Assembly: GCA_030765605.1 (NCBI GenBank) | Contig: JAVCCG010000109.1 | Span: 1 to 64,000, forward strand | Length of the DNA: 64,000 nt | Source: Candidatus Alcyoniella australis | GTDB lineage: Bacteria; Lernaellota; Lernaellaia; JAVCCG01; Alcyoniellaceae | Reading direction: 5' to 3' | In this document: positions 41,986 to 62,824 of the stretch, piece after piece | Layout of the letters: every line of letters starts with the position of its first letter | Numbering within the stretch: position 1 is the first letter of the stretch | Notes under the pieces: model-generated | Database searches by the model: none | What the model saw: the letters and a program-made list of their open reading frames with translations, nothing else | What the model was told of the DNA's origin: nothing | Translations under genes and position numbers: made by a program

Positions 41986-43101
41986 TTGGACCGATATTTC
42001 GAGATGCTGCGACGATCGTACGGTCGCCTGGCGCGCTTGGCCGGCGACGGCGGTCTGCTGCCGCCCTATCGCATGCAGTTCGAACTGACCTACCGCTGCA
42101 ACCAGCGCTGCTCTCACTGTTTTCAGCGCCGCATTGCCGACGATGAGGGTCGGCGCCTGCCCGCGGGAGAGCTGCCGGCCCACGAATGGATCGGGCTGGC
42201 GCAACAGGTTCCGGCCTTCACGCTGATCACGCTCACCGGCGGCGAGCCCCTGGCGCATCCCGAATTCTTCCGCATCCTCGAGGGGGTCGGCGCAATTCGG
42301 CGGGTCAACCTGCTGAGCAACGCGCTGCTGCTCGACGACCGCTTGATCGATCTGTGCCTGCGCACGCACACGCTGCTGATCGGCAGCGCGCTAATGGGCG
42401 ACCGCGAGATCCATGATCGAATCACCTGCGTACCCGGCTCCTACGACGCCTCCATCCAGCGGCTTGACGCGCTGCAGCGTGCCAAGCGCAAGGTTGGACG
42501 ACGCTACCCGCTGCTCGATATAAAAATGACGGTCACCGCCGAGAACTTCGGCTGCGTCGAAACGATCATCTCCCAGGCGGTAAAGCTCGACGCCGACTTC
42601 GTCACCTTCTCGTTGGAGTACGACAACCCGGTCAAGATGAACCCGTTTCTGACCCAAACCCTGGACGACCCCAGCTACGAGAAAGTCCACTACTTCGGCC
42701 CGCTGGAGGACCGCGGGCTGCGGGCCGAGTTCGCCAAGCTGTTCAGCTCGCTGGTGCGGCGCGGGTCGGCCGGACGCACCCGTTTCCGTTTTTACCCCGC
42801 GTTCCGCGACCCGGAGCTGACCGAGGATTACTTCCTCAACGCCGAACGCTATTACGGCAAGATGTTGCCGTGCTTCGATCCCTGGGGATGTCTGATCATC
42901 ACGCCCCAAGGGCGGGTCTATCCGTGTCTGAGCTACGAGGTGGGATCGGTGATCGACTCGTCGTTAAAACAGGTCTGGCGCTCGGAGCGCTTCGCGCGCT
43001 TCAGGGCGCTGATCCGCGAGCGCGGCACCCTGCCCGCCTGTTGGGGCTGCTGCTACGTTGACCCCGACCTCTCGGCCTTCGACCCCTCGGCGGGACGATA
43101 G
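41986..43101 (+). CDS. Radical SAM/SPASM protein
   Basis: A 371-aa protein. The SAM cluster motif CNQRCSHC (about residues 38-45) follows a FELTYR strand, with TLTGGEPLAHPEF next. The C-terminus has a cysteine-rich SPASM-like region: CFDPWGCL, VYPCLSY and LPACWGCCYVD. Such proteins modify peptides or act as general oxidoreductases; no peptide substrate is evident beside it. TTG start with GGAGG four nt upstream; an ATG six codons in is an alternative. The 3' end overlaps the convergent membrane protein by 49 bp. Confidence 0.8.
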   Translation: MDRYFEMLRRSYGRLARLAGDGGLLPPYRMQFELTYRCNQRCSHCFQRRIADDEGRRLPAGELPAHEWIGLAQQVPAFTLITLTGGEPLAHPEFFRILEGVGAIRRVNLLSNALLLDDRLIDLCLRTHTLLIGSALMGDREIHDRITCVPGSYDASIQRLDALQRAKRKVGRRYPLLDIKMTVTAENFGCVETIISQAVKLDADFVTFSLEYDNPVKMNPFLTQTLDDPSYEKVHYFGPLEDRGLRAEFAKLFSSLVRRGSAGRTRFRFYPAFRDPELTEDYFLNAERYYGKMLPCFDPWGCLIITPQGRVYPCLSYEVGSVIDSSLKQVWRSERFARFRALIRERGTLPACWGCCYVDPDLSAFDPSAGR

Positions 43102-47796: not shown

Positions 47797-47825
47797 TTGA
47801 CACTGCATTTCCTTCACTTTACAGT
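47797..47825 (+). promoter_or_regulatory. Promoter of the TetR-headed cluster
   Basis: TTGACA (47797-47802), 17-bp spacer, TACAGT (47820-47825). The -35 is perfect and the -10 has 4/6 matches. Transcription would start near 47832, directly before the palindrome described next. Confidence 0.55.
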
Positions 47826-47835
47826 ATGATAATTC

Positions 47836-47855
47836 TTAACCGGTCGCCCAGTTAA
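47836..47855. promoter_or_regulatory. 20-bp palindrome: probable TetR operator
   Basis: TTAACCGGTCGCCCAGTTAA reads as an imperfect palindrome (16 of 20 positions symmetrical; TTAAC...GTTAA arms). It lies between the predicted start site and the ATG of the TetR gene, 4 bp before the start codon, where binding would block transcription of the regulator and the co-directional genes. Confidence 0.65.
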
Positions 47856-47859
47856 ATTT

Positions 47860-48498
47860 ATGAGCCATACACCGAAATCAGCCAGAGACAAGATCCTGCG
47901 CGCAGCTGATCGGCTGTTCGGCGAGGTTGGATTCGACGCCGCTACCACCCGCGAGATCGCTGAGCTCTCGGGCGTGAACAAGGCGCTGATCCATTACCAC
48001 TTCGACAGCAAGCAGGCGCTGCTCGCGGCGCTGCTGGACGACTACTACCAACGGATGCGCATCGAGCTCACCGCGGCCCTGGATCTGCCGGGCACTGCCC
48101 GTCAACGGCTGCTGCGGCTGATCGACGCCTACCACGACTTGCTCGAACGCAACCGCAACTTCAGCCGCATCGTGCAGCGCGAGGCCTCGGGCGGCAAACA
48201 CGCCAACCGCATCCGCGAGCTGATGGGGCCGCTGTTCGAGCTGGGCACTCAATTGATCAAAGGCGCGTTCCCCGCGACGCACGATGGCGAGCTGGCAGCG
48301 GAGCAGCTAATGATCAGCTTCTACGGAATGATCGCCGGATACTTCAGCTACTCGGGCATGCTCGAGCCGCTGCTGGGCGGCGACCCGCTGAGCGCGCAGA
48401 ACTTGGCCCGGCGCCGCTCGCACCTGCGGCGGATGACCCAGATGCTGCTCGACGAGCTCGAGCGAATCTCAACAAGCGAGGCCGAAGATGACGGCTGA
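47860..48498 (+). CDS. TetR/AcrR-family transcriptional repressor
   Basis: A 212-aa protein. The N-terminal helix-turn-helix is textbook TetR: RDKILRAADRLFGEVGFDAA, TTREIAELSGVNKALIHYHF, then DSKQALLAALLDDYYQRM. The ligand domain (about 60-212) is variable and helical. The stop overlaps the start of the glycyl radical enzyme gene by 11 bp, so the regulator is expressed with the enzymes it presumably controls. The palindrome just ahead of its ATG argues for autorepression. Confidence 0.9.
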   Translation: MSHTPKSARDKILRAADRLFGEVGFDAATTREIAELSGVNKALIHYHFDSKQALLAALLDDYYQRMRIELTAALDLPGTARQRLLRLIDAYHDLLERNRNFSRIVQREASGGKHANRIRELMGPLFELGTQLIKGAFPATHDGELAAEQLMISFYGMIAGYFSYSGMLEPLLGGDPLSAQNLARRRSHLRRMTQMLLDELERISTSEAEDDG

Positions 48499-51094
48499 AG
48501 CGGCTCACGTCCTGGAAGACCTTGGCCAGCCCCGCCCCTCGGAACGCATCAAGCGGTTGCAACGGCGCTACCAAAGCGGCGAGGCACACATCTCAGTGGA
48601 GCGCGCGCGCTATTTTACCCACAGTTGGCAGGACACTCAGGACCACGACATGTCGCGCAACCTGCGCGTGGCCCTTGCCATGCGCCGGGTCTACGAACGA
48701 ATGACGATCCACCTGGACCCGGACGATCGCATCGCCGGCTACTGGACCGAGCACTTCCTCGGCGCACCGGTAATCATCGAGCGCGGCGAGTACAACCGCG
48801 TGCTCGAGGCCGAGCTGACCAAGCCGCGCATGGCTGCGTTCCGCGCCGCGTCCGCGGCCAAGGCCCTGAAGTACTTGCTGCGCAAAGGCAAGCTGGGCGA
48901 GCTGATTCACAACCAACGCCTGGCGAACCGCGCCGGGGCCCAGCCGATGAACATGGGATTGCAGACCATGGACCGGCGCGAGGTCAACCCGTTTCAGATC
49001 GACCCGGCCGACCGTCGCGAGCTGCTGGGCGAGCTGCTGCCCTATTGGCGCGACCGCTGCCTGGCCGACGTGCTCGAACAGCGCTTGGCCCAGTCGGGAC
49101 TTTACTCCGAGGAGATGCACGACTTTGCCACGGCCCTGCCGGGCAACACCTCGCGCCAGGTAATAATGCTCGCCACCTGCGCCACCTGCGCCACGATCCA
49201 GGGGCACGTAATCCTCGACTATCAAAACGCCCTGGATAACGGTCTGGAGGCAATGCTGGCCCAAGTGCTGCACCAGCTCGAGCAAGACGGGTTAAGCCAA
49301 GAGCAGCGCGACTTTCTACTCTCGATCAGGCACGCCCTGGAGGGCGTGGAGACCTACGCGCGACGCCTGGCCGTCAAGGTGCGCGAGGCTGCGGACATTG
49401 AGCGGGATCCCGGACGCCGCGCCGAGCTCGAACGCATGGCGCGCGACTGCGAGCGCGTGCCGCTAAAGCCGCCGCAGACCTTTGCCCAGGCGGTTCAGGC
49501 GCTGTGGACGCTCAAGACCGCGGTGGAGCTGGCGCACCCGATGAACCTGCACTGCTTCGGCCGTCTGGACCAGATCCTCTACCCGTACTACCGCGCCGAC
49601 CTCGAGGCCGGTCGCACTGATCCGGCAGCGGCCTGCGAGCTGATCGAGGAGCTGCTGCTCAAGCTGATGTCGCAGAACATCCGCCTCGAATCGAACATGC
49701 TCTCGCACTTCTACCACCGCTTCCTGGGCTCGACCCCGGTGACCATCGGCGGCCTGACTCCCGAGGGCAAGGACGGCACCAACGCGCTGACCTATCTGTT
49801 CCTGCGCGCGGCGCACAACTCCAAGGCGATCACCAACATCTCGCTGCGCGTGCATAAAAAGACCCCGGACGAGCTGCTGCACGTCATGGCCGACTACCTG
49901 CAGCAGGGCACGTCGAGCTACGCGCTGTTCAACGACGAGGTCAACGTGCCGGCGATGCGCAACAGCGGATTCGCCGAGCGCGACGCCCACGACTACGCGG
50001 TGATGGGCTGCGTCGAGATGACCTGCCCGGGCCGCACCGGCTCGATGAGCGCCAACGCCCTGCTGCTCTCGCGAGTGCTCGACATCACCCTGCGCAACGG
50101 CGACGCGGCCACCATGGCCGGCACGATCCACGGCGAGGGCTTGCAAACCGGCGACCCGGACACGTTCGGCGATTACGCCGAGCTTGAGGACGCCTTTATC
50201 AAGCAGGCACAATTCTTTGTCGACAAAATCGTACGCGGCTCCAACCTACGCGACGAGCTGCACGCCGAGCTGCTGCCCGCGCCCTACATCTCGGCCTTCA
50301 TGCACGGCTGCCAAAAGAGCATGCGCGACGTGACGCACGGCGGCGCGGACTACGACCTCTCCGGGATCTCGTTCATCAACTCCATCGCCAACCTCAGCGA
50401 CTCGCTGTACGTAATTAAGAAGCTGGTCTTTGAGCAACGCGCGTTCAGCGTCAAACAGTTGCTGCAGGCGGTGGACAATGACTTCGTCGGCCACGAGGAG
50501 CTGCTTGAGCAGATCCAGGGGCTGGGCGGAATGTGGGGCAACGGCGAACCCCAGAGCGATGAGCTGGCGCGGCGCGTCAGCGAGCGGTTGTTCAAGCTGA
50601 CCCACGACCACCGCTCGTTCAAGGGCGGCCCGTTCGTGCCCTACGTGATCAGCATGACCACCCACACCATCGACGGCCGACTGTCGATCGCCACGCCCGA
50701 CGGTCGACGCGCGGCCACGCCGTTCGCCGCAAGCTGCAATCCCTACAACGTCGAACGCCAAGGCGTGACCGCGGCGTTGCGCTCGGTGGCGACGCTGCCG
50801 TTCGAACACGTCCTGGGCTGCGCGGTTAACATCAAATTTCATCCCAGCGGCGTGGGACAGACGCGCACTGCTCGCGATAAATGGATCCAGCTGATCCGCG
50901 CCTACTTCGCCATGGGCGGGTCGCAGCTTCAGCCGACCGTGGCCAGCTCCCAGATGCTGCGCGACGCCCAACGCAATCCGGAACAGTACCGCGACCTAAT
51001 CGTCAAGGTCGGCGGATACAGCACCTACTTCGTGGACATGGGACGCGAGATCCAACAAGAGGTGATCGACCGCACCGAACACGGCGAAATTTAA
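48488..51094 (+). CDS. Glycyl radical enzyme of the PFL/diol-dehydratase-like family
   Basis: An 868-aa protein with a PFL domain and the C-terminal glycyl radical domain. Thiyl-radical cysteine and neighbouring Glu in VMGCVEMTCPGRTGS (CxE as in eliminase-type members). Radical site KVGGYSTYFVDMGREIQQE with predicted Gly843; K replaces the usual R before VxGY. GHVILDYQN in the middle is also family-typical, and it follows a CATCAT stretch. No radical-activating enzyme with the activase CxxxCxxC signature is in the window, so activation must come from elsewhere. Substrate unknown: eliminases in this family act on diols, choline, hydroxyproline or hydroxyphenylacetate. Confidence 0.88.
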   Translation: MTAEAAHVLEDLGQPRPSERIKRLQRRYQSGEAHISVERARYFTHSWQDTQDHDMSRNLRVALAMRRVYERMTIHLDPDDRIAGYWTEHFLGAPVIIERGEYNRVLEAELTKPRMAAFRAASAAKALKYLLRKGKLGELIHNQRLANRAGAQPMNMGLQTMDRREVNPFQIDPADRRELLGELLPYWRDRCLADVLEQRLAQSGLYSEEMHDFATALPGNTSRQVIMLATCATCATIQGHVILDYQNALDNGLEAMLAQVLHQLEQDGLSQEQRDFLLSIRHALEGVETYARRLAVKVREAADIERDPGRRAELERMARDCERVPLKPPQTFAQAVQALWTLKTAVELAHPMNLHCFGRLDQILYPYYRADLEAGRTDPAAACELIEELLLKLMSQNIRLESNMLSHFYHRFLGSTPVTIGGLTPEGKDGTNALTYLFLRAAHNSKAITNISLRVHKKTPDELLHVMADYLQQGTSSYALFNDEVNVPAMRNSGFAERDAHDYAVMGCVEMTCPGRTGSMSANALLLSRVLDITLRNGDAATMAGTIHGEGLQTGDPDTFGDYAELEDAFIKQAQFFVDKIVRGSNLRDELHAELLPAPYISAFMHGCQKSMRDVTHGGADYDLSGISFINSIANLSDSLYVIKKLVFEQRAFSVKQLLQAVDNDFVGHEELLEQIQGLGGMWGNGEPQSDELARRVSERLFKLTHDHRSFKGGPFVPYVISMTTHTIDGRLSIATPDGRRAATPFAASCNPYNVERQGVTAALRSVATLPFEHVLGCAVNIKFHPSGVGQTRTARDKWIQLIRAYFAMGGSQLQPTVASSQMLRDAQRNPEQYRDLIVKVGGYSTYFVDMGREIQQEVIDRTEHGEI

Positions 51095-51132: not shown

Positions 51133-51321
51133 ATGACAAAGCATTACAGCAAGCCCGCATTATTCATGATGGTTCGTCAACGAGGCGTGCAAGGTGCCGC
51201 AAGAACTAGAAAGCCGAGCCGATACTTCGCAGGCGTACCCGCTGTGGTACGTCGAGGACGGATCGGCGAGGATGACGAAGTCATTGCGCACAGATTGTGC
51301 GCCACAGTAGAAGCTTCATGA
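51133..51321 (+). CDS. Small basic 62-aa protein coupled to the epimerase gene
   Basis: ATG at 51133 with GGGA six nt upstream. The product (MTKHYSKPALFMMVRQRGVQ..., ending CATVEAS) is rich in Arg and has no recognised domain. Its TGA overlaps the ATG of the next gene (ATGA), a coupling arrangement that supports it being translated. It is the only unexplained gene inside the TetR cluster. Confidence 0.45.
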   Translation: MTKHYSKPALFMMVRQRGVQGAARTRKPSRYFAGVPAVVRRGRIGEDDEVIAHRLCATVEAS

Positions 51322-52316
51322 ATAATCCGGGCAAAGCATTGGTCACCGGAGCCGACGGGCTGCTGGGCAGCTACCTGGTGCGCGAGCTGCTCGAAGCCAA
51401 CATCGCGGTGCGCGTACTGCGGCAGCCGAACAGCAAATCGCCGACCCTCGATGGACTTAAAATCGAGTCGCAGCAGGCCGACCTGCTCGGTCCGGCAGCC
51501 GACCTGGAGCGCGCGGTCGATGGCTGCGACTGTGTCTTTCATCTGGCGGCGATCACCGACCAGTGGGCGCCGGACGAGCTGATCTACAACGTCAATTTGG
51601 AGGGCACGCACAAGCTGCTCGACGCCTGCCTGACGCAAGGCATCAAGCGGCTGGTGTTCTGCGGCTCGGCCAGCTCCTACCAAAGCGGCACGATCGAGCG
51701 TCCGGGCGACGAGAGCGGCGGCTTCCCCGAGCAATATCGCGGCATCGCCTACATGGAGTCCAAGCACCGCGCTTCAGCGCTGGTCAAGCAATACGTGGAC
51801 GAGCACGGGCTGGACGCGGTGATCTGCGCGCCGACCTTCATGCTCGGGCTCTACGACTCCCGGCCCAGCTCGGGCGAGCTGATCAAACAGTTCGTCGAAA
51901 AACAGCTGCTCTTCGCCTCGGCCGGCGGCCGCAACTTCGCCCATGCCCGCGATGTGGCGCGCGGCATGCTCGGGGCGCTGCTGCGAGGAACGGCCGGACG
52001 CAGCTACATCCTCGGCGGCCGCAACATGAGCTACTTCGACTTTTTCAGCGCAGTGGCGCGCATTGCGCACACGCGGCCGCCCAAGGTCGTGCTGCCCGGC
52101 GCGCTGGTGCTCACCGGCGGCGCATTGGCCGAGGCCTTCGGAAAGCTCAGCGGCAAAAAAGTGCAGCTCAACCGGCGCATCGCGCGTTTGTCGCTGATCG
52201 GAAGCTACTACAGCTCGCAACGCGCCATCGACGAGTTGGAGATGCCGCAGACCGACGTAGAGCAATCGATCGAGGACTCGCTGACCGGTCTCAAACAATA
52301 CGGACACCTGAGGTGA
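51318..52316 (+). CDS. NAD(P)-dependent epimerase/dehydratase-type extended SDR
   Basis: A 332-aa Rossmann protein: GADGLLGSYLVRELLE (GxxGxxG cofactor loop), VFHLAAITD, FCGSASSYQSG and the catalytic YMESKHR (YxxxK). This is the atypical/extended SDR type found in dihydroflavonol reductases, 3-beta-hydroxysteroid dehydrogenases and hopanoid-associated HpnA-like proteins. Position between a glycyl radical enzyme and another SDR suggests it reduces or oxidises a pathway intermediate. The ATG overlaps the preceding small ORF. Confidence 0.83.
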   Translation: MNNPGKALVTGADGLLGSYLVRELLEANIAVRVLRQPNSKSPTLDGLKIESQQADLLGPAADLERAVDGCDCVFHLAAITDQWAPDELIYNVNLEGTHKLLDACLTQGIKRLVFCGSASSYQSGTIERPGDESGGFPEQYRGIAYMESKHRASALVKQYVDEHGLDAVICAPTFMLGLYDSRPSSGELIKQFVEKQLLFASAGGRNFAHARDVARGMLGALLRGTAGRSYILGGRNMSYFDFFSAVARIAHTRPPKVVLPGALVLTGGALAEAFGKLSGKKVQLNRRIARLSLIGSYYSSQRAIDELEMPQTDVEQSIEDSLTGLKQYGHLR

Positions 52317-52324
52317 GGCAGACC

Positions 52325-53134
52325 ATGGACTACTTCAAAGACAAGGTGGCGTTGATCAGCGGAGCCAGCCGCGGCGTAGGGTTCGCCACGGCCAAACAGC
52401 TGCTGCAGGCCGGAGCCAAGGTAGTGATCTCGGCCCGCGGCGAGCAACGGTTGCTTAAATCGCGCGACGAGCTTGCGGCCCTGGGGCCGGTGGCGGCCGT
52501 GACCGGCGACGTGTCGCAGGTCCAGGACTGCCAGGCGATGGTCGCCGCGGCGGTCGAGAACTTCGGCGGCCTGGACATTTTGGTCAACAACGCCGGGGTC
52601 TCAATGCGCGGACGTTTTCGCGATCTGAGCTTCGAGGTGCTCAAGAGCGTGACCTCGGTCAACCTGCTGGGCAGCATGTACCTGACCAAGGCGGCGATCG
52701 AGCCGCTGATCGAGCGTCGCGGTCACCTAGTGTTTATCTCGAGCATTGCCGGGCTGTTCGGCGTGCCCGTGGCCACGGCCTACTGCGCGAGCAAGGGCGC
52801 GCTGAGCGGGCTGGCCGAATCGCTGCGCCTGGAGCTGCACGATCTGGGAGTGCACGTGGGCGTGGTCTACCTCGGGTTTACCGAGCACGATCCGGAGAAG
52901 CGCATTCTGGCGGCCGACGGCTCGCTGGTAAAACCCGATCGACCGGCGCATCACACCCAGGCCCAGGCCGCGGAGCTGATCGTCAAGATGCTGCGCAAGC
53001 GCAAACGGCGGCTGATCATGACCCCGGCGGGCAGCGCGGGCAACCTGCTGCACCGGATCTCGCCGCGCCTGCTCGAGGAGGCGATTCTCACGGCGCAGCG
53101 CAATGAATGGAAAGTCTACAAACGATTTTCATAG
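52325..53134 (+). CDS. Short-chain dehydrogenase/reductase
   Basis: A 269-aa classical SDR: GASRGVGFATA (TGxxxGxG-type loop), NNAGVSMRG, ISSIAGLFG (catalytic Ser) and YCASKGA (YxxxK). A C-terminal basic segment (MLRKRKRRLIMTP) and the last 30 residues suggest membrane or lipid association, as in acylglycerone-type reductases. It starts 8 bp after the epimerase-like gene. Probably NADP-linked ketone/alcohol interconversion in the same pathway. Confidence 0.87.
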   Translation: MDYFKDKVALISGASRGVGFATAKQLLQAGAKVVISARGEQRLLKSRDELAALGPVAAVTGDVSQVQDCQAMVAAAVENFGGLDILVNNAGVSMRGRFRDLSFEVLKSVTSVNLLGSMYLTKAAIEPLIERRGHLVFISSIAGLFGVPVATAYCASKGALSGLAESLRLELHDLGVHVGVVYLGFTEHDPEKRILAADGSLVKPDRPAHHTQAQAAELIVKMLRKRKRRLIMTPAGSAGNLLHRISPRLLEEAILTAQRNEWKVYKRFS

Positions 53135-53153: not shown

Positions 53154-53918
53154 ATGGGATACGTCAAAACCCCCGAGGAGCTCAGCAAGTACTACAGCCT
53201 TGGCGTGCGCAAGTTCGTTGACGCGCAGATGCTGGGAGTAATGTTCCTCACCAAGCCCGAGATCGTGCAGCGACTGCTGCCGCCGCCGCTGGAGCCCGAC
53301 GAGACCCCCGCGGGCCTGATGTTCATCGCCAGCTACAAGGCGACCAACCTCGGTCCGGGTTACCACGAGGCCGCGATCTATTTGCGCTGCCGCCACAACG
53401 GCGAGTCGGGCACCTACTGCCTGAGCATGCCCATCGACGCCGAGGCGCGGATGCACAACGGCCGCGACATCTTCGGTCTGCCCAAAAAAATGTCGCACAT
53501 CAGCCTCGAGCGCGAGGGCGACACGGTGCGCGGCTGGGTCGAGCGCGCGGGAGTGCGCTTCGTGCAGGTCGAGGTCAAGCTCCAGGGCGAGCTGCCCGAG
53601 CTGCCGCCCACCGGCCCGAGCTTCACCTTTAAGGCCATGCCGCGCGTCGATTTGCAGCCCGGGTTCGACGGGCCGGTGCTGCTGGCGCGCCAGCAGACCA
53701 CGATCGATCTCAAGCATTGCGAGGTGGGCCAAGCCACGGTGCAGCTCACGCCTTCCGCGGCCGACCCTTGGGCCGAGATCGAAATCGAGCAGACCTTGAT
53801 GGGCTTTTTACTTGTCAGCGACAACACGATGCTGCCCGGCAAAATCGTGGCCGAGGTCGACCCCGAGGCCTTCCTGCCGTTCTATTTCAAGATGACCGAC
53901 TTCTCGACCGGAGAGTGA
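53154..53918 (+). CDS. Acetoacetate-decarboxylase-family protein
   Basis: A 254-aa protein of the acetoacetate decarboxylase fold. The catalytic Schiff-base lysine motif is in GRDIFGLPKKMSHI (K-K pair as in the clostridial enzyme), after EAAIYLRCRHNGESGTYCL and before the cone-shaped barrel C-terminus. Family members decarboxylate beta-keto acids or, in diverged groups, do aldol-dehydration chemistry. In this cluster, flanked by two SDRs and an acyl-CoA dehydrogenase, a beta-keto or alpha-keto acid substrate is plausible. Confidence 0.83.
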   Translation: MGYVKTPEELSKYYSLGVRKFVDAQMLGVMFLTKPEIVQRLLPPPLEPDETPAGLMFIASYKATNLGPGYHEAAIYLRCRHNGESGTYCLSMPIDAEARMHNGRDIFGLPKKMSHISLEREGDTVRGWVERAGVRFVQVEVKLQGELPELPPTGPSFTFKAMPRVDLQPGFDGPVLLARQQTTIDLKHCEVGQATVQLTPSAADPWAEIEIEQTLMGFLLVSDNTMLPGKIVAEVDPEAFLPFYFKMTDFSTGE

Positions 53919-53962: not shown

Positions 53963-55165
53963 ATGATCGACTTCACGCCCGACGAGACCCAACTGCAAAT
54001 CGTCGAGACCGCACGCAAGTTCGGCAAGGAGGTGTTGCAGCCCGCCGAGGTCGAGCTCGATGCGATCAACGACCCGCAGCAGGCCTTCGATTCCAAGCTG
54101 TTCTGGGATGTGCTGGGCCAGGCGTTCGAGCTGGGATTTCCCAAGATGGCCCTGCCCGAGAGCTGCGGCGGCCTGGAGCTCGACGCGAGCACCACGGGCA
54201 TGGTTTGGGAAGAGCTGGCGCGTTGGGGCACGGGAATCACCGCCTGTTTGCTCGCCGGATCGGTGGTGCCGCAGCTGATCAACTTTTTAGCGCCGGACAA
54301 TACCGAGCTGGTCGAGCGCTACGTGGCGCCGTTCTGCGCCGATAACACCGGCCGCAAGATCAGCGCCTGGGCCAGCTCCGAGCCGGACGTGGGCTCCGAC
54401 GGCAAGCTGTATTTCGAGCCGAAGATCCGTCACTACACCACGGCGGTCCAGCGCGGCGACAAGTGGGTGATTAACGGCACCAAATCCAACTTCGTGTCCA
54501 ACGGCACCATTGCCGACGTGTACATCGTCTTCGCCTGCGTCGATCCGTCCCAGGGGCTGCGCGGCTCGGGAGCGTTCGTGGTGCCCGCCGACGCGCCGGG
54601 CGTGTCGCGCGGCAAGCCGGTCCCGCGCGTGGGCCTGCGCAACCTCAACCAGGGTCCGGTGTTCTTCGAGGACGTCGAGATCCCGCAAAGCTACATGATC
54701 TTCCCTCCGGGCGAGGGCTACCCGATGCTGCACAACTCGATCATCACCGTGGGCAACGTGGGCGTGGGTTACCTGGCGGTGGGCCTGATGCGCGCGGCGT
54801 ACGAGGACGCGCTGCAATACTCCAAAGAGCGCGTGCAGGGGCTCAAGCCGATCTTCGAGCACCAACTGATCGCGGACAAGCTGTTCAGCGCGTTCTGCGC
54901 CATCGAGTCCTCGCGCGCGCTGTTGTGGAAGGCCAGTTGGATGTGCCGCTCGAGTTTCCCGGGCGATCTTAAAACCAGCATCGCCGCGCGGGTCAACGCC
55001 ACGGAGCAGGCCGTGAGCCACACCGCCCAGATGGTGCGCGTGCTTGGCGGCTACGGCATTTCCAGCGAGTACAACCTCGAGAAGTACGCGCGCGACGCGC
55101 TGCTGCTGACAATCATGGACGGCACCAACGAGACGCTGATGCTCAAGGGGGCCTCGTTACTCTAG
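53963..55165 (+). CDS. Acyl-CoA dehydrogenase
   Basis: A 400-aa FAD enzyme with all three ACAD domains: N-terminal helical (LGFPKMALPESCGGLELD), central FAD-binding AWASSEPDVGSDG and KWVINGTKSNFVSNG, and the C-terminal helical domain with RVLGGYGISSEYNLEKYARD. The usual catalytic-base region reads MDGTNETLML. RBS GAGGGAGAG lies close to the ATG. It would introduce or remove a C=C next to a thioester (or a carbonyl-like group) in the cluster's pathway. Confidence 0.92.
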   Translation: MIDFTPDETQLQIVETARKFGKEVLQPAEVELDAINDPQQAFDSKLFWDVLGQAFELGFPKMALPESCGGLELDASTTGMVWEELARWGTGITACLLAGSVVPQLINFLAPDNTELVERYVAPFCADNTGRKISAWASSEPDVGSDGKLYFEPKIRHYTTAVQRGDKWVINGTKSNFVSNGTIADVYIVFACVDPSQGLRGSGAFVVPADAPGVSRGKPVPRVGLRNLNQGPVFFEDVEIPQSYMIFPPGEGYPMLHNSIITVGNVGVGYLAVGLMRAAYEDALQYSKERVQGLKPIFEHQLIADKLFSAFCAIESSRALLWKASWMCRSSFPGDLKTSIAARVNATEQAVSHTAQMVRVLGGYGISSEYNLEKYARDALLLTIMDGTNETLMLKGASLL

Positions 55166-55178
55166 GACGACAAGCGCG

Positions 55179-56447
55179 ATGAAAAATTTGCAACTCGGTG
55201 ATTTGCGGCACTATGCGCCGCGGCCCGGCGATGCGGACCTGGAGGCGTGCGACGCGGCGGCGCGTGAGCTGGCCGAGATAATCGCGCCGCTGATCCGCAA
55301 GTCCGCCGACCTGAGCGCTGCCGACCGATTGCGCGACGCGCGGCGTCGCGCCCGGGCCCTGGCGCTGTTCGGCCGCAACTTTACGATCAACCGACGCAAG
55401 CTGCGCAAGGGCGATCACGCCCTGCGGCCGCTGTACGCGATCTGGACCATGCTTAACCAGTGCAACTTCCGTTGCACCTACTGCGACAATCATCAGGGCC
55501 ACGCCTACTACGATGTGGACGACCCCGGGCGATTGGACACCGTAGGCGGCAAGCGGCTGCTGGAACTGATCCACAGCGGCACGCCCGCGCTCTACTGGTG
55601 CGGGGGCGAGCCGACCCTGCGCGACGACCTGCCCGAGCTGCTCGACTACTCGTGGGACCTGGGCTTCTTCCCGAACATGATCAATACCAACGGCTTCAAC
55701 ATCCATCAACGACTGCAGCAGCGGGCCTGGCGCGACTTCCTCTGGCAGATGGATGTGGTCGTAGTCAGCCTCGACGCGCTGAACCAGCGACTGCTGCGCA
55801 AGCTCTGGGGCGTGAGCAAGACCGAACAGGTGCTGGTCAACCTGCTGCTGCTGCGCCGTCTGCGCGAACTGGTCAAGTTCAAGCTCAGCGTCAACACCGT
55901 GATCAGCGAGCAGACCCTGGACGAGGCGCGCGCGGTGCTCGACCTGTGCGCGGACCTCGACCTGTGGTTCGTGCCCGTGCCGGTCAACCAGGGGCATCGG
56001 CCCTCGGAGAGCCTGCTGCAAAATCCCGACTACCAAGCCCTGGCCGAGCTGATCTTGCAGCGCAAGGCCGACGGCCAGAAGATCATCGGCTCGGCCACGC
56101 TGCTGGGGCGGCTGCTGTACTGCCGACCGCACACCTGCTACACCACGCTCAAGCCGCACATCTGGTCCGACGGCTCGCTGTGCTGGCCGTGCCGCGCGCC
56201 GGTCAACGTCGAGCCGCAGGACATCAACCTGCTGAAGTTCGACAGCTTTGACCAGGCCTACGCGGCCGGACGCAAGCTGGTCAATCCGGATAACTTCCAC
56301 GGCCCGGCGGCCAACCAGTGCGGCGGAGAATGCGCCTGGATGCAGAACTACACTACCAGCCGCTATGCCGAGGGCCTGCTGCACCCGCTGCAAAGCGGGA
56401 TCGTCGGCGAGATCGCCGAGTTCGCCCTCAACCCAGCCAAATGGTAA
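55179..56447 (+). CDS. Radical SAM protein with C-terminal cysteine cluster
   Basis: A 422-aa protein. Cluster motif CNFRCTYC (about residues 95-102), CGGEPTL downstream, and C-terminal cysteines (YCRPHTCY, CWPCRAPVNV, CGGECAW) suggesting one or two auxiliary Fe-S centres. It does not look like a glycyl-radical activase, which is small (about 250-300 aa) with a different cluster spacing and ferredoxin insert. It starts 13 bp after the acyl-CoA dehydrogenase and may perform the difficult C-H step of the pathway. Confidence 0.8.
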   Translation: MKNLQLGDLRHYAPRPGDADLEACDAAARELAEIIAPLIRKSADLSAADRLRDARRRARALALFGRNFTINRRKLRKGDHALRPLYAIWTMLNQCNFRCTYCDNHQGHAYYDVDDPGRLDTVGGKRLLELIHSGTPALYWCGGEPTLRDDLPELLDYSWDLGFFPNMINTNGFNIHQRLQQRAWRDFLWQMDVVVVSLDALNQRLLRKLWGVSKTEQVLVNLLLLRRLRELVKFKLSVNTVISEQTLDEARAVLDLCADLDLWFVPVPVNQGHRPSESLLQNPDYQALAELILQRKADGQKIIGSATLLGRLLYCRPHTCYTTLKPHIWSDGSLCWPCRAPVNVEPQDINLLKFDSFDQAYAAGRKLVNPDNFHGPAANQCGGECAWMQNYTTSRYAEGLLHPLQSGIVGEIAEFALNPAKW

Positions 56448-56455
56448 AAGGCCGC

Positions 56456-57253
56456 ATGGACAAGCCCGGATTGCGGCCCGACTCCAACCTGCTGGTGGGC
56501 ATCGACGCAGCCCTGGTCGCGTTGGTCAGCGCAGCGATCTGCCTCCGGGCCCACGACCTGCCACTGATGTCGATCCTGGTGCCCGCGCTGATCGTGGCGC
56601 GGATGATCGCCGTGGCCGCCGTGGCCCGCCGTGAGCAGGTAAATATTTCGGGCGAGCTGTTGTTCCTGCTGCTGTGCACGCTGCTCGGCGCGTTCAACGA
56701 TTGGAACTCGGTGCACAACCATCGGATCTACGACTACGCGGTGCCGCATTACTTTGAGTTCTCGCAGATCCCGCTGTGGATGCTGCTCTACTGGGGAATG
56801 ATCCTGCGGCTGATGGCGCGCCTCACGCGCTGGCAGGCGCTCGCGCCGCCCACGCGGCCCTCGAACTGGGTCGGGTTCGGACGGCTGGGCCGCGAAAGCG
56901 CACTGCCCAAGGTCGTGCTGGAACTGCTGATCGTGTTCACCTCCCGTCAGGCGATCTACAAGTACTACGCCGATCCGCTGCTGAGCTGGCTGCCCTTCGC
57001 CCTGGGCCTGGCCGTACTGCTGATGCTGATCAGACCCACCCGGCACGACCTGAAGCTGCTGGGGATCACCTTGATCGTCGGGCCGCTGATCGAGGTGCTC
57101 TACATCCGTGTCGCCGGCCTGCACCACTATCAGCTGGGTTGGATCTGCGGAGTGCCGCTGTGGATCGTGCTCTGGTGGCTGACCGCGATCCTGGTATTCA
57201 AGGACCTGACCCTACGCTTCACGCCTTTACTGCAGCGAGGCGACCCCGGGTGA
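56456..57253 (+). CDS. Polytopic membrane protein, end of TetR cluster
   Basis: A 265-aa hydrophobic protein with about seven helices. A polar loop NDWNSVHNHRIYDYAVPHYF between helices stands out and could bind a metal or polar head group. ATG at 56456 with AAGG 5 nt upstream; an ATG at 56441 overlapping the radical SAM stop is the alternative. I do not recognise the family. Spacing makes it the last gene of the cluster. Confidence 0.65.
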   Translation: MDKPGLRPDSNLLVGIDAALVALVSAAICLRAHDLPLMSILVPALIVARMIAVAAVARREQVNISGELLFLLLCTLLGAFNDWNSVHNHRIYDYAVPHYFEFSQIPLWMLLYWGMILRLMARLTRWQALAPPTRPSNWVGFGRLGRESALPKVVLELLIVFTSRQAIYKYYADPLLSWLPFALGLAVLLMLIRPTRHDLKLLGITLIVGPLIEVLYIRVAGLHHYQLGWICGVPLWIVLWWLTAILVFKDLTLRFTPLLQRGDPG

Positions 57254-58925: not shown

Positions 58926-60422
58926 GTGAGCCGCTTGCGCGTTCTGTTCGTCCGCCAAAGCAAGCCGCACTTCGAGGTCAACGTCACGCACCCGCTGGGC
59001 CCGATGTCCGTGGCCGCCTACGTGCGCGAGCACAACAACGCCGAAGTGGAAATCTTCGACAACCGGCTGCTCAATCTGCCGCTGGACGAGCTGCTGCAGC
59101 GCGTTGTCGATTGGCGGCCCGACGTGCTGGCGGCCACGGCGATGACCTTCGAGGCGCCCGAGCTGCATCGCTTTTTGGCTCGCGCGCGCCAGCTGCTGCC
59201 CAACACGCCGCAGGTAGTCGGCGGGATTCACGCTACGAACAACCCCGAGGCCATCGTGCGCGGGGCGGCCCAGGGCTCGCGCTTCGAACACAGCGGCGCG
59301 CGACCCGGAGCGGCCGACGTGGCGGTGATCGGCGAGGGCGAGCAGACCCTGAGCGAAATACTCGCGGCCTACGAGTCCGGCCGCAATCCGTCCGACATCC
59401 CGGGCACAGCCGTGCTGCGCGACGACGAGCTGCTGCTCGGCGCACCGCGCGAGGTGATCGCCGACCTGGACTGCATGCCCTGGCCGGCCTACGACCTGAT
59501 CGACGTACCGCGTTACTTCGGCAAGCTGATGGGCGACCTACTCTACAACCGGCCCGAGCAGATGAGCATCCAGACCAGCCGCGGCTGCCCCTACGGCTGC
59601 ACCTACTGCCACAACCTGTTCGGCCGCAGGTTCCGGCCGCGCTCGGCGCAGTCGGCCCTGGACGAGATCCAAATGCTGGTCCAGGACTACGGTGTGCGCG
59701 AGCTGCACATCCAGGACGACGTGTTCAACCTCGACCTCGATCGCGCCAAGGCGATCTGCCGCGGGATCGTTGAACGCGGGCTCGACCTGGTGCTGGCGTT
59801 CCCAAACGGCGTGCGCGGCGATCGGATGGACGACGAGCTGCTCGAGCTGATGTGGCGCGCGGGCACACGTCGGCTCTCGCTGGCGATCGAGACCGTGGAT
59901 CCGCAGATTCAGCGCGAGATCGACAAAAACCTCGACGTGGACATGGTCGCCCAATACATGGCCAAGGCCGCACGCATGGGCATGCTGGTCAAGGGCTTCT
60001 TCATGCTCGGGTTCCCCGGCGAGACCGAGGAGCAGATCCGCGCCACCATCGAATTCGCGCGGCGCACGCACAGCCACATCGCCAACTTCAGCCGCGTGGT
60101 GCCCAACCCCGCCACCGAGTTGGGCCGCCGCGTGGCAGCGCAGCGCGGACCGATCGACGTGTGCTGGGAGGAGTTCACCTACGACTACTCGAGCATCAAC
60201 CTCTCGGCTGTTTCGGACGAGCGTTTCGAGCGGCTGATGCGACTGGCCTACCAGCGCTACATGCTCTCGCCACGCCGTGTCTGGGGCCTGATCCGGCTGT
60301 TCCCCAACAAGCTGCGCTTCTTCTGGCGCTACGCCGGACTGCTGATAATTAAACTGTTCATGCCCAAAGCCCCGCGCCACAAAGGCGACAAAGGCTTCCA
60401 GCCGATCAAAGTACGCTATTGA
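58926..60422 (+). CDS. B12-binding-domain radical SAM protein (1)
   Basis: A 498-aa protein: N-terminal cobalamin-binding Rossmann domain (about 5-130, VLFVRQSKPHFEVNVTHPLGP, GGIHATNNPEAI, VAVIGEGEQTLSEIL), radical SAM core with CPYGCTYC (about 218-225) and a C-terminal helical extension (RVWGLIRLFPNKLRFFWRYA). The family often methylates unreactive carbons in lipids, hopanoids or antibiotics. GTG start immediately after the upstream stop; a TTG three codons later is possible. A paralog is at 61352-62740. Confidence 0.88.
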   Translation: MSRLRVLFVRQSKPHFEVNVTHPLGPMSVAAYVREHNNAEVEIFDNRLLNLPLDELLQRVVDWRPDVLAATAMTFEAPELHRFLARARQLLPNTPQVVGGIHATNNPEAIVRGAAQGSRFEHSGARPGAADVAVIGEGEQTLSEILAAYESGRNPSDIPGTAVLRDDELLLGAPREVIADLDCMPWPAYDLIDVPRYFGKLMGDLLYNRPEQMSIQTSRGCPYGCTYCHNLFGRRFRPRSAQSALDEIQMLVQDYGVRELHIQDDVFNLDLDRAKAICRGIVERGLDLVLAFPNGVRGDRMDDELLELMWRAGTRRLSLAIETVDPQIQREIDKNLDVDMVAQYMAKAARMGMLVKGFFMLGFPGETEEQIRATIEFARRTHSHIANFSRVVPNPATELGRRVAAQRGPIDVCWEEFTYDYSSINLSAVSDERFERLMRLAYQRYMLSPRRVWGLIRLFPNKLRFFWRYAGLLIIKLFMPKAPRHKGDKGFQPIKVRY

Positions 60423-61351: not shown

Positions 61352-62740
61352 CTAGCGCTGCAGACCGCGCCTGACGAACATTCCCACCAAGTAGGGTAAG
61401 AGTACCAGCTTGTTCGGAAGCCGCCAGAAGATGCGCCAGAGGCGGATCGGATTGAGGTAGAATTTCTGGTAGGCCAGCTTGCGCAGCCGCGTGACCTCTT
61501 CCTCGGGCACCTCGCTGAGGTTGATGTCCGAGCTGTGAAACTCGAACTGCTCCACGGTCATCTCCGGCTCGGGATGGTCCTTGAACACGATCTTGTGCAG
61601 TTCCGATCCGCGGAACGGCAGCACGCGGTAGAACGCCGCAGTGTGGAACTTGGACGACCAGGCGAAGCGCAAAGTTTGAAGCATCTCCTCGCGGGTCTCG
61701 CCGGGAAATCCGAGCATAAACGCGCCGTGGGTCATAATCCCCAGCTTGGCGGTCTGCTCGACGATCTCGCGCGCCTTGTCGAGCTTGACGTTCTTTTTCA
61801 TGTAGCGCTGCATGCGCTCGGAACCCGACTCGATGGCGTACATCGTGCGGTACATGCCCGCGCGCTTGAGCCACTTGACGGTCTCCAGGTCCATCCGGTC
61901 GGCACGCATGCCGTTGGGAAAGGTGATGCTGATCTTCAGCCCACGCTCGATGATCATTCGGCAGATGTCCTGTACGCGCCCCAGGTCGAGGTTGAACATA
62001 TCGTCCATGAACTCGATCTCGCGCACGCCGTAGCGCTCGTACACGGCCTGGATCTCGTCCACCACGCGTTCGGGCTGCCGCGGCCGCCAGACCTTGCCCA
62101 GGTTGTTGTGGCAATAGATGCAACGGTAGGGGCACGAGCGCGAGGAGAACATCGTCATGAACTTGCGATTTTTGAAGATGATCCCGCCGCGATGGATGTA
62201 GTTGTAGCGCTCCAGGGGCACTAGGTCCCAGGCCGGGAATGGGATGGTATCGATGTCGTTGATGAACGGCCGCGGCTCGTTGCGCACCAGCTTGCCATCG
62301 ACCATTGCGGCCAGCCCCTTGACCTCTCGCCAGTCGCCGCCCGCCTCGAGGTTGGCCAGATATTCGGGCAGCGTGATCTCGCCCTCGCCGATACACAGCA
62401 AGTCGATGTTCTGATCGCGCAGCGTGCGCTCCACATCGTTGGCCGGATGCGCGCCGCCCACGATCACCTTGGCCGCGGGCTTCCACTTTTTGACCAGCGC
62501 GGCCAGATCGTGCATGCACGCGGCCTCGTAGGTCATGGCCGAGATGCCCACCACGTCCGGGTCCTGCGCGCGCACGCGCTCCATGGCCGCCTCGGGGGTC
62601 AGCTCCTCGAGCTTCATGTCGAGCACCGCCACGTCGTAGCCCGCCTGGCGCAGACTCGCGGCAATGTACAACACGCCCAACGGATGCAGATGGGTGTGAT
62701 GCTGATATAAATATGCCGCCTGAACCAGCAGAACCTTCAA
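61352..62740 (-). CDS. B12-binding-domain radical SAM protein (2)
   Basis: A 462-aa paralog of the protein at 58926-60422: B12 domain (KVLLVQAAYLYQHHTHLHPL, IVGGAHPANDVERTL, LLCIGEGEITLPEYL), cluster motif CPYRCIYC (about 202-209), and the same C-terminal helical tail (INLSEVPEEEVTRLRKLAYQ, RLPNKL). TTG start at 62740 with GGGAGG 9 nt upstream; the frame extends to 62791 without RBS. Likely role: lipid or small-molecule methylation or ring rearrangement. The two paralogs converge around the MscS gene. Confidence 0.87.
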   Translation of the reverse strand: MKVLLVQAAYLYQHHTHLHPLGVLYIAASLRQAGYDVAVLDMKLEELTPEAAMERVRAQDPDVVGISAMTYEAACMHDLAALVKKWKPAAKVIVGGAHPANDVERTLRDQNIDLLCIGEGEITLPEYLANLEAGGDWREVKGLAAMVDGKLVRNEPRPFINDIDTIPFPAWDLVPLERYNYIHRGGIIFKNRKFMTMFSSRSCPYRCIYCHNNLGKVWRPRQPERVVDEIQAVYERYGVREIEFMDDMFNLDLGRVQDICRMIIERGLKISITFPNGMRADRMDLETVKWLKRAGMYRTMYAIESGSERMQRYMKKNVKLDKAREIVEQTAKLGIMTHGAFMLGFPGETREEMLQTLRFAWSSKFHTAAFYRVLPFRGSELHKIVFKDHPEPEMTVEQFEFHSSDINLSEVPEEEVTRLRKLAYQKFYLNPIRLWRIFWRLPNKLVLLPYLVGMFVRRGLQR

Positions 62741-62824
62741 CGCGTCTCGCCTCCCAGGGCGCAGTTTAACCGCGCTCCGCCCGACTGCCAAATTTAGGCT
62801 TACAAGCTATGGTGCATTGGCTTG

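Follow-up and report, generated by a model that had tools for sequence, protein, structure and literature searches.

We analyzed a 64,000-nucleotide stretch of DNA from Candidatus Alcyoniella australis (assembly GCA_030765605.1, contig JAVCCG010000109.1, positions 1 to 64,000 of the forward strand), referred to below as the window, and focused on the glycyl radical enzyme (GRE) encoded at 48488..51094 (+). We put the probability at about two in three that this gene specifies a working GRE from a subfamily not yet characterised, and that this GRE is the central enzyme of an anaerobic gene cassette under TetR control. The gene, which starts with ATG and encodes 868 amino acids, looks real and intact. 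Its product matches both the PFL-like domain (PF02901, 457.7 bits) and the Gly_radical domain (PF01228, 75.6 bits) above the Pfam cut-offs. The original prediction, made by a model from the sequence, had placed the radical at Gly843 and the active site at a CVE motif. Both are found (C508-V509-E510, and Gly843 within KVGGYS), and Cys508 and Gly843 are invariant among 25 aligned rows. The protein is presumably an oxygen-sensitive radical enzyme, and its family is still uncharacterised.

The claim that the GRE falls in no characterised class is supported by both profile scores and phylogeny. Its 489 bits against TIGR01774, the general PFL2/glycerol dehydratase model, stay below the cut-off of 678, and it gains no more than 421 bits against the NCBIfam equivalogs, whose cut-offs are about 1000 or more. 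It falls short of the models for HpsG (NF048011, 421 bits, cut-off 1000), HpfG (NF048009, 391 bits, cut-off 1000), hydroxyproline dehydratase HypD (NF043068, 399 bits, cut-off 1100), choline trimethylamine (TMA)-lyase CutC (TIGR04394, 366 bits, cut-off 1050) and the arylacetate decarboxylases (NF033715, 235 bits, cut-off 1150; NF033718, 291 bits, cut-off 1100). Nor does it resemble pyruvate formate-lyase (PFL): Cys508 stands alone in GCVE with no adjacent cysteine pair, and the score against TIGR01255 is 91 bits (cut-off 994). We then searched 84,980 genomes, with six aligned relatives as the query and by way of two short peptide patterns, through which variants may be missed, and recovered 64 loci. 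Every one is titled as a metagenome-assembled genome from an uncultured lineage; these include Deltaproteobacteria/Myxococcota, Phycisphaerae, Hydrogenedentota, UBP15, Actinomycetota, Syntrophomonadaceae, Dehalococcoidia, Spirochaetales and many Lokiarchaeota. Below, GRE loci are labelled L, genomes G and contigs C; G000 is the source genome, C109 is the window contig, L036 lies in G004, and L113 is RA.bin91. Of the 88 rows in our tree, 72, the window GRE among them, form a single group (SH-aLRT 100, stem 0.92), and the seven references, HpsG (6lon), CutC, HypD, glycerol dehydratase (GD), YbiW, PflD and PFL, fall outside it. The tree was built quickly and its reference branches are long; the separateness of the 72 rows is robust, unlike the order in which the references branch. 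The window GRE falls in an 11-row subgroup (support 99). Within the 72-row group we distinguish clade A, which contains the window GRE and carries Cys-Val-Glu-x-x-Cys-Pro-Gly, from clade B, which carries Cys-x-Asp and includes the paralogue on contig C143 of the source genome. The second cysteine of the clade A motif (Cys513 in the window GRE) is specific to that clade. Clade A mostly has Cys-x-Glu, with L045 as a member that has Asp, and may be a grade rather than a clade. Membership in the known GRE classes is ruled out by the curated cut-offs and the tree. Judged by sequence, the GRE belongs to no curated class and represents a large uncharacterised subfamily that extends from uncultured bacteria to Asgard archaea, and for which we found no characterised member.

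The AlphaFold2 model of the GRE (pLDDT 87, pTM 0.90) is nearest in fold to GD, propanediol dehydratase, HypD and CutC, with benzylsuccinate synthase and arylacetate decarboxylase ranking lower. The enzyme does not cluster with glycerol or propanediol dehydratase in sequence, although its predicted fold lies nearest to those dehydratases. It shares with GD, propanediol dehydratase, CutC and HypD the Cys-x-Glu motif and the glycyl loop as well as the modelled fold, and His240 occupies the place of GD His164. It differs from them in its low identity (24-27%), in Cys513, in its gene cassette and in an additional segment at about residues 100-157 that has no counterpart in the solved relatives. The modelled fold supports an eliminase-like GRE without naming a substrate.

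The GRE heads a cassette with the order TetR-GRE-(activase)-EPI-SDR-ADC-ACAD, which is kept across many phyla of uncultured anaerobes. In the window, the first gene after the GRE encodes an extended short-chain dehydrogenase/reductase (SDR) of epimerase/3beta-HSD/HpnA-like type with a YxxxK motif (EPI, 51318..52316 (+), alternative start 51297), which matches PF01370 and scores below the cut-off of TIGR03466. It is followed by a classical SDR oxidoreductase at 52325..53134 (+), above the cut-offs of PF00106 and NF004825, with YxxxK and an Arg after beta2 that marks it as NADPH-type. The next gene, at 53154..53918 (+), encodes an acetoacetate-decarboxylase-family protein (ADC; PF06314, 179 bits). 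Alignment with solved ADCs places its catalytic lysine in the Schiff-base motif PKK, which is found by pattern in 18 of 19 members of the ADC family, the pattern missing the one in L041. The last gene, at 53963..55165 (+), encodes an acyl-CoA dehydrogenase-family protein (ACAD) by its domain matches. It lacks the catalytic Glu before the GTNE-type motif and has Asp386 instead. Since Asp is invariant at this place in all 14 cassette ACADs compared (the window and 13 relatives), the cassette ACADs may have unusual specificity. The original prediction had noted dehydrogenases and an ADC-fold protein beside the GRE as an unusual combination. That is borne out, with an upstream TetR gene in addition, and the combination proves to be conserved in relatives. 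We found no paper that describes a GRE together with an ADC in a cassette of this kind, in a literature search that left subscription journals mostly outside its reach. The conserved gene set makes the pathway testable.

Searches with the window genes (tblastn) showed that the cassette neighbours recur in bacterial clade A loci at mostly ~41-68% identity, the TetR being lower in a second group. The complete order TetR-GRE-EPI-SDR-ADC-ACAD is found in L036 and L041, and in L044 and L100 it is found with an activase after the GRE, as far as contig ends permit. In L052-L055 and L075, SDR-EPI is divergent from TetR-GRE-ADC-ACAD. At least one of EPI, SDR, ADC and ACAD lies beside the GRE in 18 of the 20 bacterial clade A loci, the window counted, the exceptions being L076 (on a contig of 4.4 kb) and L091. 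EPI and SDR are fused as one open reading frame of 591-601 residues in L041, L045, L092 and L100; Pfam confirms both domains in L041. EPI, ADC and ACAD were found by tblastn in no clade B locus, where GPH transporters, FGGY kinases and DeoC/KDPG-type aldolases (the tested DeoC match being weak, 34 bits) occur instead. Four clade B loci (L057:8563-19775, L056, L059 and L067) have tandem GRE-GRE-activase genes, with the catalytic motif Cys-x-Asp rather than Cys-x-Glu; the L057 set also holds a GPH sugar symporter, an Fe-alcohol dehydrogenase, an FGGY kinase and a DeoC-type aldolase, and looks like a radical sugar/polyol pathway. The clade A GREs of Lokiarchaeota have an ADC and an FAD-binding oxidase as neighbours, and some of these loci also encode a B12-binding protein and URO-D-family proteins. 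B12-binding and URO-D-family proteins were likewise observed near clade A GREs in L093:5049-16587, L050 and L094 (Lokiarchaeota and an actinomycete), where one URO-D-family protein has an N-terminal domain called HMG-CoA_red_N by Pfam. These neighbours suggest a link to methyl transfer.

The cassette begins with a TetR-family regulator gene at 47860..48498 (+) (PF00440), whose last 11 bases overlap the beginning of the GRE gene. Upstream of it we noticed a promoter-like site, TTGACA-17-TACAGT, at 47797..47825 (+), identified by consensus scan only (10/12). Just after this site, and 4 bases before the TetR start, lies the 20-base operator-like palindrome TTAACCGGTCGCCCAGTTAA at 47836..47855 (+). 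Even with 3 mismatches allowed, the 4.29-Mb genome holds no second copy of the palindrome, and no further operator sites that would mark additional pathway genes were found in it. The same element precedes TetR-GRE in G004 (2 mismatches), G073 (1) and G060 (1), while a second group of cassettes has TTGACC-N4-GGTCAA elements in its place. Because further 3-mismatch sites in G004 and G060 are no more frequent than those of a reversed-pattern control, only near-perfect sites are meaningful. A TetR orthologue occupies the same position in 11 related cassettes. Given that its operator is unique in the genome, the predicted TetR protein looks like a dedicated local regulator. No Rfam match was found in the window.

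The original prediction had also described the GRE as being without an adjacent activase. It is right that none adjoins the gene, but related cassettes carry an activase, and the genome has a matching one next to the C143 paralogue. Thus, the window is without an activase, and the system is not. A whole-genome search found seven GREs and three canonical activases in the genome (98% complete). Two of the activases adjoin a GRE, on C143 and on C94, and the third is fused to the GRE of C78; none lies on C109, and the GREs on C109, C79, C35 and C64 have no activase close by. Among the neighbour proteins scanned with activase models (TetR, the cassette enzymes, the radical SAM proteins at 41986, 55179 and 58926 and two membrane proteins) there was no good match, the sole activase-type match being that of the protein at 55179 to NrdG2 (28 bits, cut-off 131). 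The C143 activase is an ordinary canonical GRE activase (TIGR02494, 310 bits, cut-off 174); it does not adjoin the window GRE and, to be its partner, would have to work in trans. The closest paralogue of the window GRE is the one on C143 (51-52% identity overall), and their glycyl-radical loops (residues 836-866) are 84% identical, versus 32-55% for the other GREs of this genome. In other genomes, activases of the C143 type lie within the cassette (L044, L075, L100 and L076), immediately downstream of the cassette ACAD (L113), beside clade B GREs (G004, G078, G079 and G080, as in G000) or as orphan genes (G060, G064 and G081). They are present in 13 of the 19 cassette-bearing bacterial genomes searched, and local, orphan and clade B activases are intermixed in one subfamily of the activase tree (support 96). 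Because relatives place the same type of activase in all these positions, Gly843 probably receives its radical in trans, with the activase beside the C143 GRE as the likeliest partner, and for the same reason an absent neighbour gene should not be equated with an absent activase. The sharing of one activase by two GREs in a cell becomes testable.

We propose that an activase, most likely that of C143, would install the radical on Gly843 in trans, and that the radical would pass to Cys508, which would abstract a substrate hydrogen. Glu510 could then assist loss of the leaving group in a dehydratase- or lyase-type elimination that gives a carbonyl product; by analogy with the glycerol, propanediol, hydroxyproline and choline enzymes, we slightly favor this course. 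The later steps are more tentative, and we hold their combination at somewhat below even odds: the two NADPH-type SDRs would reduce carbonyl intermediates, the ADC-family enzyme would decarboxylate a beta-keto acid via a lysine Schiff base, and the ACAD would act on a thioester derivative. As to the substrate, some of the data would fit a sugar or polyol, some a sulfonate and some a methylated compound. A bolder and rather speculative possibility is that clade A catalyzes a reaction new to GREs on a methylated or lipid-like substrate, with the product linked to corrinoid/URO-D-type methyltransferases in Lokiarchaeota and an actinomycete, EPI-SDR-ADC-ACAD processing across bacteria, and an activase shared by two GREs per cell. 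Several points weigh against our reading of a functional GRE at the head of a regulated cassette. The trans activation is something that we infer, and the other 6 of the 19 cassette-bearing genomes have only more distant GRE activases (~36-46% identity), so that activase identity is not strictly coupled to the cassette. The genome scan found no copy of the cassette operator at the C143 activase; the GRE and its activase would therefore be regulated separately. GD His281, Ser282 and Asp447, the diol-binding residues of that enzyme, are replaced at the aligned places by Asn353, Leu354 and Ala522, and a simple diol reaction as in glycerol/propanediol dehydratase is therefore not implied. Finally, the cassette contains no CoA ligase or CoA-transferase that would supply the thioester for the ACAD.

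Among the alternatives, the one that survives best, though we consider it unlikely, is that the substrate is derived from a sugar or polyol, as is probable for the sister clade B. The GPH sugar transporters, FGGY kinases and aldolases of clade B loci, together with the GPH transporter beside the clade A cassette of L075, are consistent with it, but clade A cassettes encode EPI, SDR, ADC and ACAD and no kinase or aldolase, and the active-site motif differs between the clades (mostly Cys-x-Glu versus Cys-x-Asp). It is less probable still that the enzyme acts on an organosulfonate, as a C-S lyase or as a dehydratase, with sulfite or the product being exported. HpsG (6lon), the sulfopropanediol enzyme, is the closest solved sequence (345 bits), its NCBIfam model is the second-best match, and TauE/SafE-family genes occur near clade A GREs in L036, L042, L075 and L094 (Pfam-tested in L075 only). 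However, the GRE lies far under the HpsG cut-off, and many classes score nearly as high against it. TauE is also a very broad family, the TauE genes of this genome are on other contigs, and dsrA was not found in the genome.

The radical SAM protein encoded at 55179..56447 (+) might be imagined as a non-canonical, co-transcribed activase, as its gene starts 13 bases past the ACAD stop, and in L113 a canonical activase occupies that very place after the cassette ACAD. Orthologue context and profile and fold matches led us to reject it as a GRE activase, a role that we regard as very unlikely. In G004, G001 and G045 the orthologues are located apart from the GRE cassette and always have the same membrane protein (56441..57253 (+) in the window) beside or near them; that protein thus appears to be a conserved partner of the 55179 protein and not of the GRE. 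The two-gene unit (55179-57253), which is separate from the cassette, shares 63/54, 45/43 and 49/49% identity with its counterparts in the three genomes; in G045 a TetR-type gene lies between the two genes, and G001 has no GRE of this subfamily. No related cassette holds a homologue of the 55179 gene by tblastn. The protein has the CX3CX2C radical SAM motif and C-terminal cysteines, is absent from the whole-genome TIGR02494 matches, and in both profile and predicted fold (pLDDT only 72) resembles MoaA, viperin, DesII and SPASM maturases rather than any GRE activase. It passes no curated cut-off except that of the general Pfam Radical_SAM domain. The original prediction had rightly set it apart as a radical SAM protein of a different kind, and structure prediction gave it no activase-like fold. 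Least probable of all, and considered mainly as a control, is a fumarate-adding enzyme of the alkyl/benzylsuccinate synthase type: GREs of Asgard archaea have often been read in this way (PMC8163825) and the window GRE has relatives in Lokiarchaeota, but MasD and TutD score only 164-171 bits against it compared with ~300-345 for eliminases, the fold match puts eliminases first, and inspection of the cassettes by eye, with no profile search made, showed no synthase small subunits. Limonenylsuccinate synthase, considered from the literature as a lead to the substrate, is a fumarate-adding enzyme and does not fit. According to one survey, pflD and assA are hard to distinguish from other GREs (PMC6258724).

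Two further GREs of the source genome were observed. On contig C79 (L016:4855-14456), another GRE, remote from that of the window (32% identity) and with no adjacent activase, is accompanied by an epimerase, an SDR, two CoA-transferase subunits, MmgE/PrpD and an ACAD, a kit similar to that of the window cassette. On contig C78 (L021:6429-9767 (+)), a single frame of 1112 amino acids joins a canonical-type GRE activase, which matches TIGR02494 above the cut-off at residues 77-263, to a complete GRE with RVAGYCAYF. We found no paper on a natural activase-GRE fusion in a limited literature search. In G004:C94, G061:C1 and G074:C173, frames of 1107-1156 amino acids that match an activase suggest that this fusion has relatives.

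Further downstream in the window, the genes at 58926-60422 and 61352-62791 encode two related radical SAM proteins with B12-binding domains, which are 37% identical and convergent. Between them lies a gene that by eye resembles those of mechanosensitive channels.

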